Below, one piece after another: positions 6,250 to 28,924 of a stretch of DNA of 38,866 nucleotides (position 1 is its first letter; each line of letters starts with the position of its first letter). The DNA lies in the NCBI GenBank assembly GCA_031280035.1, contig JAITHJ010000040.1, positions 1 to 38,866 on the forward strand, in the 5' to 3' direction. The position numbers and the translations under genes are program-made. Origin of the DNA: Spirochaetaceae bacterium. GTDB taxonomy: Bacteria > Spirochaetota > Spirochaetia > Treponematales > Breznakiellaceae. The notes under the pieces are model-generated. The model made no database searches. It was not told where the DNA came from and saw only the letters and a list, made by a program, of their open reading frames with translations.

Positions 6250-6270
6250 CACCAGAGAGACTGGTGTTTT
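6250..6270 (+). terminator. possible weak intrinsic terminator after the exonuclease gene
   Basis: CACCAG-agaga-CTGGTG followed by TTTT. Confidence 0.35.
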
Positions 6271-6312
6271 GGGTTATTGTTAATTTTTATATTTAGTTGT
6301 AAAATAACCGCC

Positions 6313-8329
6313 ATGAAAAAAAAATATTCGCATCTTGCACTTGTGTTCGTTATTGTTATGTCGTTTTTCTATGCAGTTATTTCAATTCCATTGATACGGC
6401 AGCAATTTGTTTCATTTTTGTGCAGAAACTCTACGCGTCTGTTGTTGGAAAGCATAATAGGACGAACCCTAAATCCTCTTACTTTAGAGTCCAATTGGGA
6501 TAAATTTATCACGAAAATAATTTGGGACGGTACATTTTTATTAATTTTATCAGCGGCTTTATACATAGAATTGTGCGTAATAAACTTCAAACGGAGCCGT
6601 AGCAAAACGGCGGTTGTATGTATTACTGTCTTACTCTATTTTTCATCAATGGGTATGAATACAGTAGGCGGTGATTTACATTTTCATTTAGATAGGATAG
6701 AAGAGCTTGCGTGCGCCATAAGATCAGGAGATATTCCAACTCACTTTGATTACTCTGTTGCTTCAAAAGCAGGTAGTGGTAAGTCGATAGATTATCCAGA
6801 ACTATTTTTATATATTCCTGCCTTACTGCGGGTGTTTGGAGTGCCAATTAGTATCACATATATATTGTTTTACATTCTTATTAATGCAGCAACCATTCTA
6901 ATCGCATATTACTCCATGAACAGGATCACACGCTCAAGATGTATTGCTTTAATATTCTGTGCGCTTTACAGCCTCTGTCTTTATCGTCTTATCGATATGA
7001 ATCTTCGTGCCGCTGTGGGTGAGTCGCTTGGTATGATCTTTGTTCCGCTTACTATAGCGGGAATCTATGGGATTTTTTATGAAAAAGATGAAAATGGTAA
7101 AAGGAAATGGCTTACCCTTGCAATAGCGATGAGTTGCATACTACAAAGTCATGTCATTACATTTCTTTTAACAAGTGTTTTTATAGCTTTTTTTCTGATT
7201 GTAAATGTTAGAAGAATTAATAAGCAAATCATTGCAGCAATAAGCAAGGCCGCCGTTGTATGTATTCTGTTAAACCTATGGTTTATAATACCTTTTATAT
7301 CGTACTATAAATATATAAGACATACAATGCCATTTGACTTGTATCTTACAGCGGTTTTTCCAAGACAGATATTCGCACCATTCGTTACGGATAACAGCAG
7401 ACAAGATTTGTATACACGCGATACAACCGCCGGAGAGATGCCGCTGTCGCTCGGCATAACAACGCTTCTTGGCATCATTGCCTTTATTACAGTGTGGAAA
7501 TCGCCGCTGTTTCAGCGGAAAGTGCGCTTTAACGGCATAAAACAATTTGGTACACAGGCTTTATACTACGGTCTTTTTGCGTTGTTTATGGCATCAACGC
7601 TTTTTCCCTGGGTATCCCCGCCAGAAAGATCAGAATGGATCCCGTTCAATTTCTTTAATCATATTCAATTTGCATGGCGTTTTTTTATTATCGCAGCTCC
7701 TCTGTTGTGTATGACGGGGAGTATAGGATTTTATTTTTTCTATAACTGTAAGAATGGGGGGGGGGGGGCAAAAACGTCTTATTTTTCTCTATACCGCAAT
7801 ATGCGTGGTAGGTAGTCTTTACTACAATATAAGTGTATTTGTAAAACCGGATAAGTATAAAAAAATAGAAAATTATTTTTTTGAATTTAATCCGTACAAA
7901 GGTGCAGATACTGAATATTCGCTTGCACACACTCTTAAGCCTCAGCCTTCTACAGGTGCCATACTCATTACAAATTATAAACAGGAACGCTCTAACATCG
8001 ATCTTTCGTATACTATTGCCGAAGATACCGCTGTGATGCGAAACGCTTTTATAGATTTTCCACTTTACAATTTCAAAGGTTATAAGGCACTGTTTAATAA
8101 AACCGTTCTGCTTAATATAAAAACAGGGACTAACTATTTTATTAGAGTTACCCTCCCCATTGCAGAAAGAAGCGGAACAATAACGCTCCGTTACAAATAC
8201 CCTCCACAATTCTTTTTTGGTTATGCTGTCTCTATTCTTACTCTCGCAGCTTTAATATGGAGGAACTTGTTCTTCAGAAAGTTTACACTACTTCAGAATA
8301 TCTTACAAAAAAGATACAGACAACGCTGA
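6313..8329 (+). CDS. multi-TM membrane protein, PTPS-related/GT-C-like, split into two frames (ORFs 6277..7815 and 7754..8329) by a 13-G tract
   Basis: ORF1 (GGDLHFHLDRIEELACAIRSGDIPTHF..., many TMs) loses frame at the poly-G; ORF2 resumes in frame +1 with a TM (LIFLYTAICVVGSLYYNISVFV); removing one G joins them. Confidence 0.75.
7756..7768 (+). repeat. poly-G tract, 13 G, intragenic (gene out of frame)
   Basis: agaat-GGGGGGGGGGGGG-caaaa read directly. Confidence 0.95.
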
Positions 8330-8380: not shown

Positions 8381-10348
8381 TTACGGAGACTCTAGGACGA
8401 TGCGGTTTTTGCCGTTCTCAATTACAGCCCGAACGCCATTTGGATACACAGTGTCGTCTTTGGAAAAAACAAATTCTTTTTCAATATCATAACGCTTCAT
8501 TTTTTCACGAATTACGTATTTAAAATAATTTTCATTCAACGCAACATGAATTGTATCATCAGTGCATTGTTTAACTTCAGAAGCAAATTTATCGAAACGA
8601 TCTGTATATACAATGCCGTTGACGGCATTGCCAATAAAAAAAGTACCGCTGTTAATACACACGAGCATAAATAAAACATAAAATAAATTTTTATTTTTAT
8701 TTGTGGTATAGTCCGCCGTCATAATTAAAAAAGCGAATAAATACCAGAAATACGGAATATACCGAGCAAGCCAGTTAATCGGAGTAATAACTGCCAGCAC
8801 CAGTAAAAGAGATGCCGGAAACAGTATTTTTTTATAGGTTGTTGATTTTTTTTCTTTGATAGTAAACAACAGAATCAAGCCTGAAAATACGCAAATTTCC
8901 ACAAATAATAGTCCAAATCCTCCGGTAACGCGGCAATAATTCCGGTGAGCCGCCGCTGAATAAAATAATTTGGCCGGATTAAAAGGCGCCGTATTCAGAT
9001 CATAGTTTATAAAAAATAGAGATAAAGAGCGCAGAACCGGATGCAATTCTAAAAATTTTTCAGACATTATAGTAGAATAAAGAAGCGATGTGTCGTTATT
9101 AAGAGGATAAAAAGGATGCCCGAAATTTTTAAAATTAGTAATATACGGATTATATCCTGTAAATACTGACCCAACTAATAATATCGCTATGCCTGATAAA
9201 ATAAGAGCGAACATTTTTTTATAATTTTTCATTACAAGCTGCTTAACTACATAGCTAATTAAAACGATGCCGCAAATAAATCCGGTAAATTTAGTATTTA
9301 TTGCAAATACGCAGACCGCTATGATAATAAATAAATCTTTGCCCCCCCCCGTTCTCTGCTGCCGCTCATAATCCATACAGGCAAAAACCAGCGTTATTAA
9401 ACACATCCCTAAAAAACTGTCAACGTAATAGGTAAAAATTTGTGACATAACTACAGGATTCGCCGCAAAAATTAGGCTTATTGCCAGTACCGCAAGTTTG
9501 TTTTTCTGATAGAGACTTGTATATTTAAGGGCGTAACAGAGCGTTACCGCAAAAAATATCATCGTATAAGATTTTCCTATTTCAATATTCTTAAAAACAG
9601 ATAACAGTATTGAAGCGAACATCTCGGTAAATTTTGCATAGTGATTATTCCAGAAAAAATCAGATTCAGGCAATATAGTATAAAAAGGATTCCACCCGTT
9701 GCTTAATTGTATTACCGCAACCTGATGATACGCTTGTCCGTCCCATGAATAATCATAAATAAAAGCGTTTATCAAACAAGATAAAATTATGATTCCGTAA
9801 CAAACAGCTAAATGAATTACCGGATTTGACTCTTTGTTTTTAATCCGGTACAGCGTAAAGGAAAGAACAATATGAAGCAGCAGTGCAAATAAAATAACGA
9901 ATACATCGGCATGAACAATTTGCAGTACAAGAAAAATATTTTTCAGAAGATATAAAATAAATATGAAAGATATTAAGAAAAAAGGCTGTTCAATTATTAT
10001 AGTTTTGATTGACGTTCCCCCTATTCGTCTATGCGCTGATTTGCCAAGAAATTTTTCAGCGGCGTTTAAGATATTTCCGGTAAAACCGGATAGTTTTGGC
10101 CACAATGCGGCACAAATAATTACAATGACGCTCAAGGCGCTTCCAAGACAGGAAAGTATTTTTAATTTGTAATGAGCCAAAGAAGGATTAGCAAGGTTTC
10201 TATGTTTTATGTTTTCAGCAGCAGAGATTATAAAATTTTGAACGCCGTCAAAAAATAATAAAAAACATACGATAAAAGCCATAGAAAACAGCGCGATTAT
10301 TATTTTTCGTTCCACCGGCAATTTATTATATTTGTTAAATATTTCCAT
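8381..10348 (-). CDS. polytopic membrane glycosyltransferase-like (GT-C-like) protein
   Basis: 655 aa, about 12 or more TMs, extracytoplasmic YDYSWDGQAYHQ Asp motif; contains a coding-strand G9 (QQRTGGGKD). Confidence 0.65.
   Translation of the reverse strand: MEIFNKYNKLPVERKIIIALFSMAFIVCFLLFFDGVQNFIISAAENIKHRNLANPSLAHYKLKILSCLGSALSVIVIICAALWPKLSGFTGNILNAAEKFLGKSAHRRIGGTSIKTIIIEQPFFLISFIFILYLLKNIFLVLQIVHADVFVILFALLLHIVLSFTLYRIKNKESNPVIHLAVCYGIIILSCLINAFIYDYSWDGQAYHQVAVIQLSNGWNPFYTILPESDFFWNNHYAKFTEMFASILLSVFKNIEIGKSYTMIFFAVTLCYALKYTSLYQKNKLAVLAISLIFAANPVVMSQIFTYYVDSFLGMCLITLVFACMDYERQQRTGGGKDLFIIIAVCVFAINTKFTGFICGIVLISYVVKQLVMKNYKKMFALILSGIAILLVGSVFTGYNPYITNFKNFGHPFYPLNNDTSLLYSTIMSEKFLELHPVLRSLSLFFINYDLNTAPFNPAKLFYSAAAHRNYCRVTGGFGLLFVEICVFSGLILLFTIKEKKSTTYKKILFPASLLLVLAVITPINWLARYIPYFWYLFAFLIMTADYTTNKNKNLFYVLFMLVCINSGTFFIGNAVNGIVYTDRFDKFASEVKQCTDDTIHVALNENYFKYVIREKMKRYDIEKEFVFSKDDTVYPNGVRAVIENGKNRIVLESP
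9342..9350 (-). repeat. poly-G tract, 9 G on coding strand (in frame)
   Basis: ttg-CCCCCCCCC-gtt on + strand. Confidence 0.93.
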
Positions 10349-13944: not shown

Positions 13945-15074
13945 ATACGTGAGGGATATAGTCCTCTTTGACGCTTAAACCATTCGGCATAGATTTTGTG
14001 GCTTCCGCCGGCGGTAAGCGCCCGTGTTCTTGTCAGTTTAAGATGATAAAACGGCGAAAGACGGGTTGACGCTATTTCTGAAATCAAATCAAACGAGTAT
14101 GGACGGGCGTGTGAATTAAGGCTGCCGGAAGAAAGATCCGCGCCGGTAAGATAAATATTGCCTGTTGTCCAGCCGAGCGCAAAGTCTAACGCCGCAGCGG
14201 TAACGGTTCCGCGTTGAGGCAGAGAAAGAACAGGAAGGCCGTTTTTGGCAAGAAGCGTATTTTGTTCTGAGCTGCCGTCGCTGAACAGTATTACCGGATA
14301 TTTTTTAAAATCGGTCAAGAGAACGGCGTTAAGCGGCGCGGCAATCAGCGGTTTTTTGGGGCAGCGCAGCGTTTCAAACAGGTGAAAGCGCGCCCAATTA
14401 CCGCCGTCGCTGGTAAAAACAATATCGGGCGTTATGCCGTGCGAAAGCAGCGCGCGGACGGCGGACGACACGGAAAGTATAATGCGGTTTTTATTCCGCC
14501 GGATTATTTTTAGGGTGTCAAATTGCGTTTCTAATCCAGGCCCTGCCGCGCACAGAATTATATCGCTGTTTACGGCGGAAGGTTTTTTCAGGGCGTTTTC
14601 CGAAAAAACGCTGATGTTTTTCATAATGTTATTTTGCCATCGTTTGGCAAAGTAGCGGGAAGTTCTTTTATTTGCGTCGGTTATTTTGATAAACGCCGCC
14701 GTTTCAGATAAAATACGCGCGTATGTTTTTCCGTCCAGCGCAAGCGCGGGTCTCCATTCGATTATTTTAATTTTGTCCGATTCTATCTCTTTAATATGCC
14801 GTTCTAAAAAGGCTGTGCAGGTTAAAGAGGATGACGGCGACCATTCCGCATCGGGTTTGTATCCGTCCGCGCCGGATAAATACTTGCTGCTTATATGCAG
14901 GCTTATTAACTTTGCCGAAGGAAATTGAGCGCGCAGCACCGGTATCATATATCCTGAGCCGCACTCGATAAGAATAAAATAAACGATGCCGGGCGGTATG
15001 GTAAGCGAATCTATATATTTTTGCGCTTCTTTCTGCGGATCATACGCTGAATGTATGCGCGGGTTATCAGACAA
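13863..15074 (-). CDS. DUF115 / 6-hydroxymethylpterin-pyrophosphokinase-like (Maf flagellar accessory-like) protein
   Basis: ILCAAGPGLETQFDTLKIIRRNKNRIILSVSSAVRALLSHGITPDIVFTSDGG; the ORF extends to 15128, but TTG at 15074 overlapping the previous gene's stop is a plausible start. Confidence 0.7.
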   Translation of the reverse strand: MSDNPRIHSAYDPQKEAQKYIDSLTIPPGIVYFILIECGSGYMIPVLRAQFPSAKLISLHISSKYLSGADGYKPDAEWSPSSSLTCTAFLERHIKEIESDKIKIIEWRPALALDGKTYARILSETAAFIKITDANKRTSRYFAKRWQNNIMKNISVFSENALKKPSAVNSDIILCAAGPGLETQFDTLKIIRRNKNRIILSVSSAVRALLSHGITPDIVFTSDGGNWARFHLFETLRCPKKPLIAAPLNAVLLTDFKKYPVILFSDGSSEQNTLLAKNGLPVLSLPQRGTVTAAALDFALGWTTGNIYLTGADLSSGSLNSHARPYSFDLISEIASTRLSPFYHLKLTRTRALTAGGSHKIYAEWFKRQRGLYPSRIYSLGVNNEALSFKRISASCLLNDNKN

Positions 15075-17532
15075 GACCCAGATCCTTGAATACCTTTTTG
15101 TATATATCGAATTTATCCGAGTGGGCAAATTCTTCTATTTTATCTTCGGGCAGCGCTTCAAGAAGCTGATCCATGTAGGCGAGCACCGTACGAATTTCGT
15201 TTTTGAATTTTTCGGAGAGGGCGTCGTGCGCCGGCTTGCCGTCCTCTTTCGCGCCTGCTTCAAGCTCCGGATCGGCTGCGGCGATTTCGCCGAGGTCGAA
15301 AGCGGAGTCTTCTTCCTGCAAGGCTTCGAGCTCTTCGGTCGCGTCTGCTTTGAGCTCCGGATCTGCTGCGGCGATTTCGCCGAGGTCAAAAGCGGAGTCT
15401 TCCTGCGAAACATCGGGGACTTCGATCTCTAAAGCCTCGCTTTCGGTATCGCCGTTGCCGAAGGGGTCTTGTTCGTCGGATTCGCTGTCGGCGATTTCCA
15501 CCGCGCCGTCGTCGTCCATGTCCAAATCAATATCGAAGCTCGGCGGCGTAACGTCAACGGCGATGTCATCGTCTCCGGCTTCGGGGTCATCTAAGCCGGT
15601 TTCGGGTTCGTCTAGGCCGGTTTCGGGGTCGTCTAAGCCGGTTTCGGGGTCGTCTAGGCCGGTTTCGGGGTCGTCTAGGCCGGTTTCGGGGTCGTCTAGG
15701 CCGGGTACGGGGTCGTCTAGGCCGGTATCGGGGTCGTCTAGGCCGGTATCGGGGTCGTCCGCGCTGACGCCTGTTTCTTCGGTTACATCCGCCGTATTGA
15801 AGATGTTCTCCAGCTCATTACAGGTCAGCGCTTCACCGCCGTCCGCGCCGTCATCGGGGTCGTCTAAGCCGGTTTCGGGGTCGTCTAAGCCGGCATCGGG
15901 TTCGTCTAAGCCGGTATCGGGGTCGTCTAAGCCGTCATCGGGGTCGTCTAAGCCGGCATCGGGTTCGTCCAAGCCGGTTTCGGGGTCGTCTAGGCCGGTT
16001 TCGGGGTCGTCTAGGCCGGTTTCGGGGTCGTCTAGGCCGGTTTCGGATTCGTCTAGGCCGGTATCGGGTTCGTCCAAGCCGGTATCGGGGTCGTCTAGGC
16101 CGGTTTCGGGGTCGTCTAGGCCGGTATCGGGGTCGTCTAAGCCGGTATCGGGGTCGTCCGCGCTGACGCCCGTTTCTTCGGTTACATCCGCCGTATTGAA
16201 GATGTTCTCCAGCTCGTTACAGGTCAGCGCTTCGCCGCCGTCCGCGCCGTCATCGGGTTCGTCTAAGCCGCCGTCCGCGCCGTCCTCATTGAGGGCGTTC
16301 AGTTCGTTTTCAGTGAGCGCGATGCTCTCGTCTTCTTCGTTAAGCCGGCTCAGCTCGTCTTCGGTAAGCGTGATGCTTTCGTCTTCATCATCGCCTTCCG
16401 CGCCGCCGTCCGGCGAATCCGCCTGTTCTTCCGTCTGACTTTCGTCCGCGCCGCAGTCCGGCGCGTTTTCTACGTTTTCCCCGGACTCAAGGGTGATGTC
16501 CGCGTTATTCAGTACGTTGCTCAATTCCTTGGGGGTGAGGGCCTCTTCGTCCTCGTTTTCCTCACCGTCCGCGCGCGCGCCTGCGCCCGCGTGTATTTCC
16601 GTTTTAACCGCCGAGATTGAGGCCTTGAGCGAGTCCAAATCGGTCTTGATTGAGGAAAGTTCGTTGGCTATTTTCAAAAGAAGCTCGGTTGCGACGTTGA
16701 CGGGCGGGCCGCCGTCCGCCGCGCCGCTTTGCGCGCCGCCGTCCGCATCGAAGACGGCGGCGAAATCCTGCTCCTCCGCGTCCCGCGGCGCGCCTTCTTC
16801 AGAGGCGTCCTCGTCAACGGCGAACGGCTCGCCGTCATCCGCCGCTTCGTCCTCGTCAACGGCGAACGGCTCGCCGTCATCCGCCGCCGCGTCTTCGTCA
16901 ACGGCGAACGGCTCGTCATCATCCGCCGCTTCGTCCTCGTCTTCGGCAAACGGTTCGTCATCGTCCGCCGCCGCGTCCTCGTCAACGGCGAACGGCTCGT
17001 CATCGTCCGCCGCTTCGTCCTCGTCTTCGGCAAACGGTTCGTCATCGTCCGCCGCTTCATCCGCGTCTTCGGCAAACGGTTCGTCATCGTCCGCCGCCGC
17101 GTCCTCGCCTTCGGAAAAATCTATGTCGTCCGCCGCTTCGCCGAATTCGTCCGCCGCTTCGCCGTCCCCGTCTTGCGCCGTTTCATCGCCGTCAACGGAA
17201 AAATCATCATCGTCATAAAAGGAAGCGCGCGAACCGCCGACAGCGGCGGCGTTTTCCTCAACAAAGCCGTCAAAGTCCATGTCCTCGCCGGCGGCGGTAA
17301 AATCGTCAAAATCGCCGTCCGCGTCCTCTTTGGCGCGCGCGCTCTCAAAATCCGCGCCGTCCTCCCGCGCGGCGCGCGCGTCAAAGGGAAATCCTTCGCT
17401 TTCAGCATCCTCAAATAGGGTTTCCGGCTCGGATTTTACCCACACGCCGTATTCGTCAAGTTCATCGGATGAGCCGATAGCCCGTCTATCGTCAAAAATC
17501 GAAGGTTTATTTGTCTTCATGTCGTTCCTCAC
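15067..17532 (-). CDS. large acidic low-complexity repeat protein (heptad DDPETGL and 14-aa [14 protein letters not shown] repeats)
   Basis: 821-aa ORF with a non-repetitive N terminus ([30 protein letters not shown]) and C terminus ([50 protein letters not shown]); abuts the DUF115 gene. Confidence 0.85.
15572..15760 (-). repeat. 21-bp coding tandem array B (about 9 heptads, DDPETGL type)
   Basis: (ggtttcggggtcgtctaggcc)n on + strand. Confidence 0.92.
15846..16160 (-). repeat. 21-bp coding tandem array A (about 15 heptads, [14 protein letters not shown] type)
   Basis: Same 21-bp unit with variant heptads. Confidence 0.92.
16805..17105 (-). repeat. 42-bp coding tandem array (about 7 x 14 aa, D[EA]AADD[DG]EPFA[EV]DE)
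   Basis: (tcgtcaacggcgaacggctcgtcatcgtccgccgcttcgtcc)n on + strand. Confidence 0.9.
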
Positions 17533-18116: not shown

Positions 18117-20018
18117 CTATTTTCTGCCCCACAGGGCGTTGTAATAATCAGAGCGCCGTCCGATTTCCTTGTTGAGGTACTCCGCGCCGTCCTTCTCAAG
18201 CAGGGTGCGCGTCTGTAACGATCTCCCCAGCGCAAGGCCGTCCCCCTCAAAAGAACCGCCTACAGCCTGAACAAGGAGGGGCAGCATATCGAAGTGAGAG
18301 AGCGCCCTGCCTTTCGCCTGTGCGGGATTGAGCGGCGAATTGATGAAGATGTTCAGCGGATAGCGGTGAGTCTGCGCGCTTTGCGCGTGAAAACCGGCGG
18401 GAAACATCCACGAATCCATGTACAGGTGGTCGCCCAAGATGACAACGGTGGTGTTTTCGTAAAAATCCTGCTTTTGTATCCATGAAACGAAGTCAAAGAG
18501 CATCGTATCGGCGTTGTAAATGACGTTTTTGAACGGCGTATCGAAGATCTGCGCGGCCTGTTTGTCAAGAAATTCCCCCGGCGGGTGCGTATCCACGGTC
18601 AACAGCGCGATAAAGAACGGATTTTCGTCCCCGCGCGCGATTTTCGGGATGATGCGCTTGGCAAAACGGTAGAGCTTGCGGTCCTCAACGCCCCAAAACG
18701 TACGGTATTCTTTGTCAATAAAGCCGTGTTCTTCAAAATAGAGGTAATCGAAGATTTGCGCGTCTTTGTGCGTCTTGAAATACTTGTCCCGCCCGCCGAA
18801 AGCCGCGTCCGACCCGCAGAAAAAGTAGTTCTTGTAACCGGCGGCGGCCAGAATGTCGCCGAGCCCCGAGCCGTTCTCAAGAAAGCGGTCGAACACCTTC
18901 CCGTAATCGTTGACTCCCCTGCCGCGGTTGATAAGAGAAACGGCCAGCGGCGTGCCGGAAAGGTAGGAGGTGATGCCCGCCACCGTCCAGCCTGCGCCGT
19001 TCAGCTGGGTAACGCCGCCTATCCCCTCGCCGGCGCTGAAATTGACGTTCCGGCGCGCGAGCTCCGTAACATGGGGGAGCAGATCCTCGTCAAACGCGCC
19101 GCCGTTTTCCTTGGTGAGGAAACCGGTCTCCAGCGATTCGACAAAAATCACGATAAGATTGCGCTTCTTTTCGGGAAACGCGATCGCGACATCCCGCGGC
19201 GGGATGTAGTTTTCCTCAAAAAAGGACGAGGACGGCTCGTTCAATGCGCGCGCGTAGTAAACGGCGGTCGCGATCACCACGCCGATGGCCGCCACGGACA
19301 CCGCTCCCGCGCAGACCGCGGCGATTTTCTTGAAAAGCTTGAACGGAAGGACGTACACGCGGCCGTTAACCGTTGCCTCATACGAAAAAAGGAACGCTGC
19401 GAAGAGCGCCGGCGCGCCCGAATTGACAAGCGGCGCGAGGATAAGACCGGTAACCATGCTCCAATTCGCCCCGCGGGTGGGAAACATCACGTGAAACAGC
19501 AGCTGCTCGATCGTAACGATCCCGTATTTTGCAAGAAACGAGAGAATTACGCAGACAAAGAACGTAAACAGCCACATTTTGAACAGCGCCGCCGCGGGAA
19601 TCGCGCCCGCGGCCTTGCGCGTTATAACGATCTTCTTCCTGAACGCCGTGTACGCGCACAGAAGGACGCCGTTGAGCGCCGTTGCCGTCGCCACGAACTT
19701 GAGGTTGAACGGCTCCCAGTTAAAAGGAGACGCCAAATACTCCAGCGCGTCGTACGTTGAACGGAGTTTGTACAGCTGGAACAGAAAAAGGTGCGCCAGC
19801 GCGAAAAAAACCGACAGGGAAACGTACCGTTTGACGAGCAGCAGCGCGCAGGATGCGGCCTTTTCGCGCGCCCGCCCGCGTTTTTCGCGCCCGGGGGCGC
19901 CCTCGCGCGCCTCGTGTAAGGCCGCGCGCGCGGACGTGAACAGCCAATACGCGAAATAGGGGGCGGTAACCAGAAAAAACGCGCTTATCAGCGCCCCGAA
20001 GGAGTACTTATCGTTCAT
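18117..20018 (-). CDS. LTA-synthase / OpgB-like phosphoglycerol transferase (sulfatase-fold) membrane protein
   Basis: N-terminal TMs then RNLIVIFVESLETGFL, TSYLSGTP, DTHPPG, VVILGDHLYMD alkaline phosphatase-superfamily motifs. Confidence 0.85.
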   Translation of the reverse strand: MNDKYSFGALISAFFLVTAPYFAYWLFTSARAALHEAREGAPGREKRGRAREKAASCALLLVKRYVSLSVFFALAHLFLFQLYKLRSTYDALEYLASPFNWEPFNLKFVATATALNGVLLCAYTAFRKKIVITRKAAGAIPAAALFKMWLFTFFVCVILSFLAKYGIVTIEQLLFHVMFPTRGANWSMVTGLILAPLVNSGAPALFAAFLFSYEATVNGRVYVLPFKLFKKIAAVCAGAVSVAAIGVVIATAVYYARALNEPSSSFFEENYIPPRDVAIAFPEKKRNLIVIFVESLETGFLTKENGGAFDEDLLPHVTELARRNVNFSAGEGIGGVTQLNGAGWTVAGITSYLSGTPLAVSLINRGRGVNDYGKVFDRFLENGSGLGDILAAAGYKNYFFCGSDAAFGGRDKYFKTHKDAQIFDYLYFEEHGFIDKEYRTFWGVEDRKLYRFAKRIIPKIARGDENPFFIALLTVDTHPPGEFLDKQAAQIFDTPFKNVIYNADTMLFDFVSWIQKQDFYENTTVVILGDHLYMDSWMFPAGFHAQSAQTHRYPLNIFINSPLNPAQAKGRALSHFDMLPLLVQAVGGSFEGDGLALGRSLQTRTLLEKDGAEYLNKEIGRRSDYYNALWGRK

Positions 20019-20049: not shown

Positions 20050-20061
20050 GGGGGGGGGGGG
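20050..20061. repeat. poly-G/C tract, 12 nt, 31-43 nt upstream of the phosphoglycerol transferase ATG
   Basis: gcgc-GGGGGGGGGGGG-cgaag on + strand (C on the strand of the downstream gene). Confidence 0.95.
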
Positions 20062-27097: not shown

Positions 27098-27157
27098 TCG
27101 CGCAAGGCCGCCCTTTGCGTATTGAAGTCTTTTGAATCGCGGGGTATACTCGCCTTT

Positions 27158-28186
27158 ATGACTACCAATGACGCATACGGCGCGGGCGCCGCCGCCGCCG
27201 GCGCGGATTGTGCCGCCGCCGGCGCGAAAACAGGCGCGGTTTTCCTCTCCGTTGTCGTCCCCTGCTTCAATGAAGAGGCGGCGATAAGGCTGTTTTACGC
27301 CCGCTGCGCGGAAATTCTTCCCGAAATGAAGATACCCTGCGCGCGGGGGGGGGGGGGAGTGAGTTTTGAGCTCGTGTTTGTCGATGACGGCTCGAAGGAC
27401 GGCACGCTGGAAGTTCTGCGCGGCCTTGCGCGCGCCGATGAGCGCGTTCATTACCTGTCGTTCTCGCGCAATTTCGGCAAAGAGGCGGCGATGCTCGCCG
27501 GATTGAGGGCCGCCGCCGGCGATTATACGGCCGTTATGGACGTTGACGGGCAGGATCCGGTGGATCTCGTCCCCGAAATGCTCGCCGTTGTCGCCGCCAA
27601 AGACGCCGACTGCGCCGCCACGCGGCGGGTTGACCGCGCCGGAGAGCCGCCGGTGCGCTCGTTCTTCGCCCGCCGCTTCTACGCGCTGATGGCGAAGATC
27701 ACCGACATCGACATTGTTGACGGCGCGCGGGATTTCCGCCTGATGAGCAGAAAATACCGGGACGCCGTTCTCTCGCTGCCCGAGCGCGGGCGGTTTTCTA
27801 AGGGGATTTTCCCCTGGGTCGGCTTCAAGACGCGGTGGTTTGAATACGAAAATATCGAACGCGCCGCCGGCGATACAAAATGGTCGTTCAAAAAACTGTT
27901 TTTGTACTCGCTGGACGGCATTATCGCGTTCTCCGCCAAGCCGCTCGCGTTCGCCGCCGTCTGCGGCTTCGCAATGTGCGCCGCCGCGCTCGTGTTTATG
28001 GGCGTGATTATTGTACGAAAATTCATGTACCGGCTCCCCGACTCAGGCTGGTCGTCGATTATGTGCGCCGTGATTTTTACCGGCGGCGTTCAGCTTGTCG
28101 CAACGGGTATTCTGGGGCAGTACCTCGTGAAAATATACGCCGAAGTAAAACAGCGCCCCCACTACGTAATACAGGAGGCGCGGTAA
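27158..28186 (+). CDS. GtrB/DPM1-like family 2 glycosyltransferase with two C-terminal TMs
   Basis: LSVVVPCFNEEAAI, FELVFVDDGSKDGTLEVL, MDVDGQDPVDLV, DFRLMSRKY; internal G13 tract in frame. Confidence 0.9.
   Translation: MTTNDAYGAGAAAAGADCAAAGAKTGAVFLSVVVPCFNEEAAIRLFYARCAEILPEMKIPCARGGGGVSFELVFVDDGSKDGTLEVLRGLARADERVHYLSFSRNFGKEAAMLAGLRAAAGDYTAVMDVDGQDPVDLVPEMLAVVAAKDADCAATRRVDRAGEPPVRSFFARRFYALMAKITDIDIVDGARDFRLMSRKYRDAVLSLPERGRFSKGIFPWVGFKTRWFEYENIERAAGDTKWSFKKLFLYSLDGIIAFSAKPLAFAAVCGFAMCAAALVFMGVIIVRKFMYRLPDSGWSSIMCAVIFTGGVQLVATGILGQYLVKIYAEVKQRPHYVIQEAR
27345..27357 (+). repeat. poly-G tract, 13 G, intragenic (in frame)
   Basis: tgcgc-GGGGGGGGGGGGG-agtgag, encodes CARGGGGVSF. Confidence 0.95.
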
Positions 28187-28924
28187 ATGGATTTGCGCGA
28201 AAGCATGCTTGAGAATAAACGCCACCCGTGGGAATTATCACGGGCGGATTGTCTCTTTAACATCGTCAAGAAACATCATTTGAATACCGCCGCCGATATC
28301 GGAGCCGGCGACGGATTCTTTATTAAGAAGCTTGCCTCCGTTATTGCCGGCGGCCTCTACGCCGTTGACGCAGGCTACGCCGAAAAAGAAACATTTTCCG
28401 GCGGCATTCATTATAAAAATGATATTTCCCTCCTGCCCGAGCCTGCGGGGGGGGGGGGGAGCGGAATAATTCTCATGGATGTTCTTGAACATGTTGAAGA
28501 CGATGCGGCGTTTCTTGATAAAATCCTTGAGAAAACCCCCGAAGACGGCTTGATTATCATTACCGTTCCGGCGTTTCAGTTTTTGTTTTCCGCCCATGAC
28601 CTGTTTTTGAAGCATTACCGCAGATACAATAGAAAAACACTGCGCGCTTTGCTGGCCCGCCGTGTGCATATAGAAAAATGCCATTACTTTTACGCAAGCC
28701 TCTTTCTGGCGCGGGCCGCCGGATTCTTTATAAAACGAAAACAGCTTTCAGGTATCGGAACGTGGCGTTTTTCAGAAACAAGCGTTGTAACGCGGTTTAT
28801 TCGCGCTGTTCTGAATTTCGATTTCTATCTGTGCGCCTTTCTCGCGCGGTTTCACTTCTATCCGCCCGGTCTGTCATTGCTTGCCGTATGCCGGAAGACA
28901 CGCGAAAACCGACATTCAAGATAA
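28187..28924 (+). CDS. class I SAM-dependent methyltransferase
   Basis: NTAADIGAGDGFFIKKLA motif I, IILMDVLEHVEDDAAFLDKI; ATG directly after the GT2 stop. Confidence 0.88.
   Translation: MDLRESMLENKRHPWELSRADCLFNIVKKHHLNTAADIGAGDGFFIKKLASVIAGGLYAVDAGYAEKETFSGGIHYKNDISLLPEPAGGGGSGIILMDVLEHVEDDAAFLDKILEKTPEDGLIIITVPAFQFLFSAHDLFLKHYRRYNRKTLRALLARRVHIEKCHYFYASLFLARAAGFFIKRKQLSGIGTWRFSETSVVTRFIRAVLNFDFYLCAFLARFHFYPPGLSLLAVCRKTRENRHSR
28447..28459 (+). repeat. poly-G tract, 13 G, intragenic (in frame)
   Basis: cctgc-GGGGGGGGGGGGG-agcgg, encodes EPAGGGGSG. Confidence 0.95.

Follow-up and report, generated by a model that had tools for sequence, protein, structure and literature searches.

Phase variation has been studied mostly in pathogens, in which it is explained by immune escape. 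Glycosyltransferase genes of Campylobacter and Neisseria undergo translational phase variation by means of homopolymers. In the spirochaete Treponema pallidum the length of poly-G runs varies in vivo and controls promoters, the loci concerned being tprE/G/J, tprL and tp0126, and the table of the same study also marks runs located within ORFs (PMC7864442). Here we describe a locus in an uncultured member of the Spirochaetaceae, related to termite-gut treponemes, in which a homopolymer of 13 Gs, at positions 7756-7768 of the forward strand, cuts one membrane-protein gene into two reading frames.

Organization of the split gene

The window, that is, the whole stretch of 38,866 nt that was analysed, belongs to a genome of 1.43 Mb in 74 contigs, 64% complete, of which only the stretches around G runs were read. 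The nearest relatives by EF-G are mostly Treponema/Spirochaetaceae MAGs, and from their isolate codes we take them to be largely termite-gut samples. Both ORFs of the first-pass annotation were found as described on either side of the G13 run: one at 6277..7815 (+), of 512 aa with the C-terminal end ...NCKNGGGGAKTSYFSLYRNMRGR before its stop, and a second (ORF2) at 7754..8329, of 191 aa, whose ATG takes in the first G of the run. The frame of the first ORF was confirmed and its start was shifted, ATG 6313 being preferred to TTG 6277 because the latter overlaps the -35-like hexamer of a promoter-like site (TTGTTA-17-TAAAAT, 6277..6305, +) that precedes ATG 6313. This site is a consensus match only, and promoter-like matches in the region were no commoner than in shuffles. 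A terminator-like hairpin, likewise a consensus match only, was located at 6250..6266 (+), 3' of the upstream exonuclease gene.

With this start, the 5' part of the gene (ORF1; 6313..7755, +) encodes 481 aa of a helical membrane part resembling PTPS_related/DUF6541. The run itself (7756..7768, +), the presumed slippage site, encodes a glycine loop with a predicted helix on either side. At the present run length an out-of-frame tail (7769..7815, +) terminates the protein, and the 3' part (7769..8329, +) lies in the other frame, forming a 186-residue continuation with one helix, a domain of extracytoplasmic type and a hydrophobic end. The claim that 12 or 15 Gs would fuse the frames into a protein of about 670 aa was arithmetically correct, since continuous reading across the run, at a length divisible by three, gives 671 aa. 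Thirteen Gs leave the gene OFF, as the state of a metagenome assembly consensus whose length may be wrong. Given the gene's own dinucleotide content, a G13 run would be expected in it by chance at 1e-6, so that the length of the homopolymer at 7756 is far beyond chance, as at contingency loci. Words of nine Gs were likewise in excess in the window (20 observed vs 0.21 expected).

Evidence that both reading frames belong to one gene

An unbroken homologue was identified in the spirochaete MAG Spiro_07 (L151), where a single ORF of 804 aa matches both halves in order. The match to ORF1 covers residues 101-332 with 36% identity (E 1e-33), and the weak match to ORF2 has 23% identity (E 4e-4) and was equalled by 0 of 1000 shuffles. 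This homologue was found by chance in an EF-G neighbourhood and not by a similarity search with ORF1; such searches gave no convincing relative in the 202 other genomes of the family, in 394 genomes of the phylum or in genome_contigs, and the two nearest EF-G neighbourhoods that were read for synteny (L109 and L110) were without the split gene. As no copy of the gene was found in the 202 other family genomes, the run is not traceable within the species. The log-likelihood per codon was +0.115 for the downstream frame and +0.109 for ORF1, with all other frames at or below -0.02, and no stop or frameshift besides the run occurs across approximately 2 kb of the gene. On the basis of the continuous homologue, the stop-free downstream frame and the equal coding signal, we conclude that the two ORFs are one gene, out of frame in this assembly. 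The run thus lies inside a single gene and its length sets the frame, as is the case at contingency loci. The first-pass annotation had proposed one gene split by a slippable tract, had remarked that the downstream part has no other in-frame stop and had called for intact homologues to be sought in relatives; no second lesion was seen in either half, and the continuous Spiro_07 ORF bears out the proposal and excludes a split here in every relative.

It had also been considered conceivable that the C-terminal part is made on its own when the gene is OFF, in which case the locus would yield two proteins, a truncated membrane part and a second protein starting at ATG 7754. The frame allows such a product, since with 13 Gs ATG 7754 opens the frame of ORF2, but consensus matching found no same-strand promoter-like site near 7754, no Shine-Dalgarno-like sequence was seen ahead of this ATG, and the relative in Spiro_07 encodes one continuous protein; we therefore regard the two-protein explanation as very unlikely. 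In the alignment of the single gene with the Spiro_07 homologue, the run, surrounded by Lys/Arg, maps to a loop that connects two helices, so that any length divisible by three could plausibly give an intact reading.

The split gene and its convergent neighbour, a polytopic membrane gene (8381..10348, -) with an in-frame G9 run at 9342-9350, form an island of low GC at 6.3-10.5 kb (GC 0.31-0.41 vs 0.52-0.62 upstream and 0.47 downstream), which suggests that both were acquired from elsewhere. This island and the patchy distribution among genomes would suit a horizontally acquired pseudogene in decay; however, about 2 kb free of any other stop or frameshift, together with a coding signal that is intact in both halves, makes decay the least probable of the explanations considered here. 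Elsewhere in the window, an 821-aa acidic protein with long repeat arrays, including GLDDPDT, is encoded at 15067-17532 (-), with long antisense open frames.

Protein family and predicted function

The Pfam models of PTPS_related (PF10131) and DUF6541 (PF20176), with 621 and 646 positions, respectively, fit the 671-aa reading in length. The sole Pfam match of ORF1 was to DUF6541 with 27.9 bits, just under the cut-off of 29 bits, and PF10131 was not matched, whereas the Spiro_07 homologue scored above the Pfam cut-off for PTPS_related. The original assignment of the gene as PTPS-related is thus upheld indirectly, through the homologue, and not by ORF1 itself. A Pfam search with the 671-aa read-through protein gave no signal in its C-terminal part, and a sequence search against the PDB gave no match. 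Hydropathy analysis indicated that ORF1 has many helices and ORF2 a single one, and the C-terminal domain appeared as strands in a low-confidence predicted model of the Spiro_07 homologue; the predicted structures of the homologue and of ORF1 were too poor for fold comparison. A GT-C fold would be expected to have a catalytic acid in its first outer loop; a motif D-x3-H-x2-RIE near residue 121 is common to ORF1 and the homologue. The best explanation of these data is a predicted membrane protein, polytopic and of the PTPS_related/DUF6541 type, the family matches being weak, and from the same weak matches the protein is probably a GT-C-like glycosyltransferase that takes part in assembling cell-envelope glycans.

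Homopolymer runs in the source genome

The source genome contains 37 runs of at least 9 Gs, many of them intergenic and others inside genes. Two loci in the window are comparable to the split gene: a G13 run at 27345..27357 (+) is in frame in a gene encoding a GT2 glycosyltransferase (27122-28186), and another at 28447..28459 (+) preserves the frame of a methyltransferase-like gene (28187-28924). An intergenic run of 12 Gs (20050..20061, +) lies 32 bases before the start of a sulfatase-domain gene on the reverse strand (18117-20018). Further in-frame runs were found in another methyltransferase gene (L069), in a 60KD_IMP-domain gene (L083) and in a GDPD gene (L081). The run in an MBOAT gene (L080) is out of frame, as is probably a C18 run close to the start of a methyltransferase gene (L076 9682). 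No Pfam or PDB match was obtained for the second half of the MBOAT gene, and the assignment of MBOAT as a split gene therefore relies on the first half and on the frames. A C10 junction (L076 7942) was not counted as a switch, as it may separate two genes. By our own classification, five of the eight longer intragenic runs are in frame, no clear in-frame excess (p 0.09). A pair of similar proteins, each about 900 aa long and encoded at L083 5435-8131 and L074 3039-5744, carries an N-terminal 60KD_IMP (YidC-type) domain, and one of them also matches a sulfatase domain, an unusual combination.

Short-read assemblies are prone to errors in long homopolymers, and some runs in G089, the third genome of the genus, resemble sequencing artefacts at the ends of contigs (L097). 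The run at 7756 could accordingly be real while its assembled length is wrong or represents one of several lengths in a mixture, with the gene mostly ON in nature. Against this, neighbouring runs of 13 Gs on this contig (27345 and 28447) are in frame, so the lengths are not simply random, and we consider a misleading length unlikely.

The base preceding the runs in the source genome is C in 32 of 37 cases, and GC precedes 24 of the 37. The run at 7756 is not explained by this flank, because it is preceded by AAT.

Homopolymer runs in related genomes

Exact G13 runs were present in 120 of 203 genomes of the family, concentrated in few genera. In the sister genome G088 (isolate Cf509_bin6), a homologue (L229) of the L069 methyltransferase, whose two parts are 76% and 57% identical to it, has its run at a different position, where it is out of frame, vs in frame in the source genome. 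The flanks of the runs in G088 also follow a pattern, with AC before 25 and T[TG]AC before 20 of the 43 runs scanned, and TTGAC directly before seven, as in a promoter spacer; a non-random flank pattern of the kind found in these two genomes was not seen in G089. Runs of 12-17 Gs between a -35-like TTGAC and a -10-like AT-rich sequence occur in G088 at L035 1321, L044 86, L050 1498, L056 1502 and L213 491, and likewise at L226 497, L227 646, L230 506, L231 642 and L233 493. The sites with TTGAC before the run are partly near-identical copies, representing a promoter family with a G run as spacer, and transcriptional switching at these spacer runs is therefore likely, judging from their sequence. 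Stretches of G and C only at contig ends (L097 3187-3275 in G089 and L212 498-568 in G088) look like sequencing or assembly artefacts, so that the run counts for these two genomes are somewhat inflated.

The spacer runs bear on a further explanation of the split gene, in which slippage of RNA polymerase or the ribosome would yield some full-length protein at any DNA length and the run would be a steady-state dosage device instead of a heritable switch. Slippage is known to occur on long homopolymers in general, but no established example involving poly-G was found and the promoter-spacer runs of G088 would act only through a change in DNA length; a dosage device is in our view quite improbable.

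A homologue of the GT2 gene in another genus (L243 1644) has an in-frame C16 run in the variable loop that in the GT2 gene of the window contains the G13 run at 27345. In the homologue of genome G087 (L237 1340-1540) the frame is broken in this loop without a homopolymer. Tentatively, several lineages of the family, including this genus, may run genome-wide poly-G switching, with repeated, independent origins of runs in the same envelope genes. The flank signature would be specific to each genome (GC here, T[TG]AC in the sister), a difference that might mean that the runs are actively generated or have been copied.

Phase variation as the proposed mechanism and comparison with known systems

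We consider slipped-strand phase variation of one membrane-protein gene to be the best explanation of the locus and a probable one, switching being deduced from the arrangement of the gene. The protein would consist of a helical bundle and a short loop of cytoplasmic type, encoded by the G run, followed by a helix, an extracytoplasmic domain rich in beta structure and a hydrophobic segment at the end. Slipped-strand mispairing during replication would add Gs to the run or remove them. Lengths divisible by three would give the full protein, and other lengths would lead to a stop soon after the loop and to loss of the last part; the assembled copy, with 13 Gs, would be OFF. Cells of a population would then differ in this gene and in several other run-bearing envelope genes. 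We infer that the length changes in vivo, that activity is lost in the OFF state and that the protein has an enzymatic role, as we do any benefit of switching.

If this is true, relatives of termite-gut treponemes would possess a large repertoire of envelope-glycan genes that can be switched. Termite hosts are expected to lack antibodies, and such a repertoire would point to pressures other than immune escape, such as phages or attachment to protists or the host. Its existence would be testable directly from existing metagenome reads.

A literature search, incomplete in its coverage, found no report of phase variation or homopolymer switching in termite treponemes, and the split gene would be a clear instance of poly-G switching, a mechanism already known, in such a setting. 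It shares with T. pallidum the occurrence of G homopolymers at many loci of a treponeme. The characterised cases in T. pallidum, however, are at promoters of outer membrane proteins, whereas the run described here lies within a membrane gene of glycan type and would act on translation. In Campylobacter and Neisseria, as proposed here, poly-G or poly-C runs switch envelope glycan genes out of frame; these bacteria belong to other phyla, the enzyme families are different, and variation in length has been demonstrated there, whereas at the present locus it is deduced.
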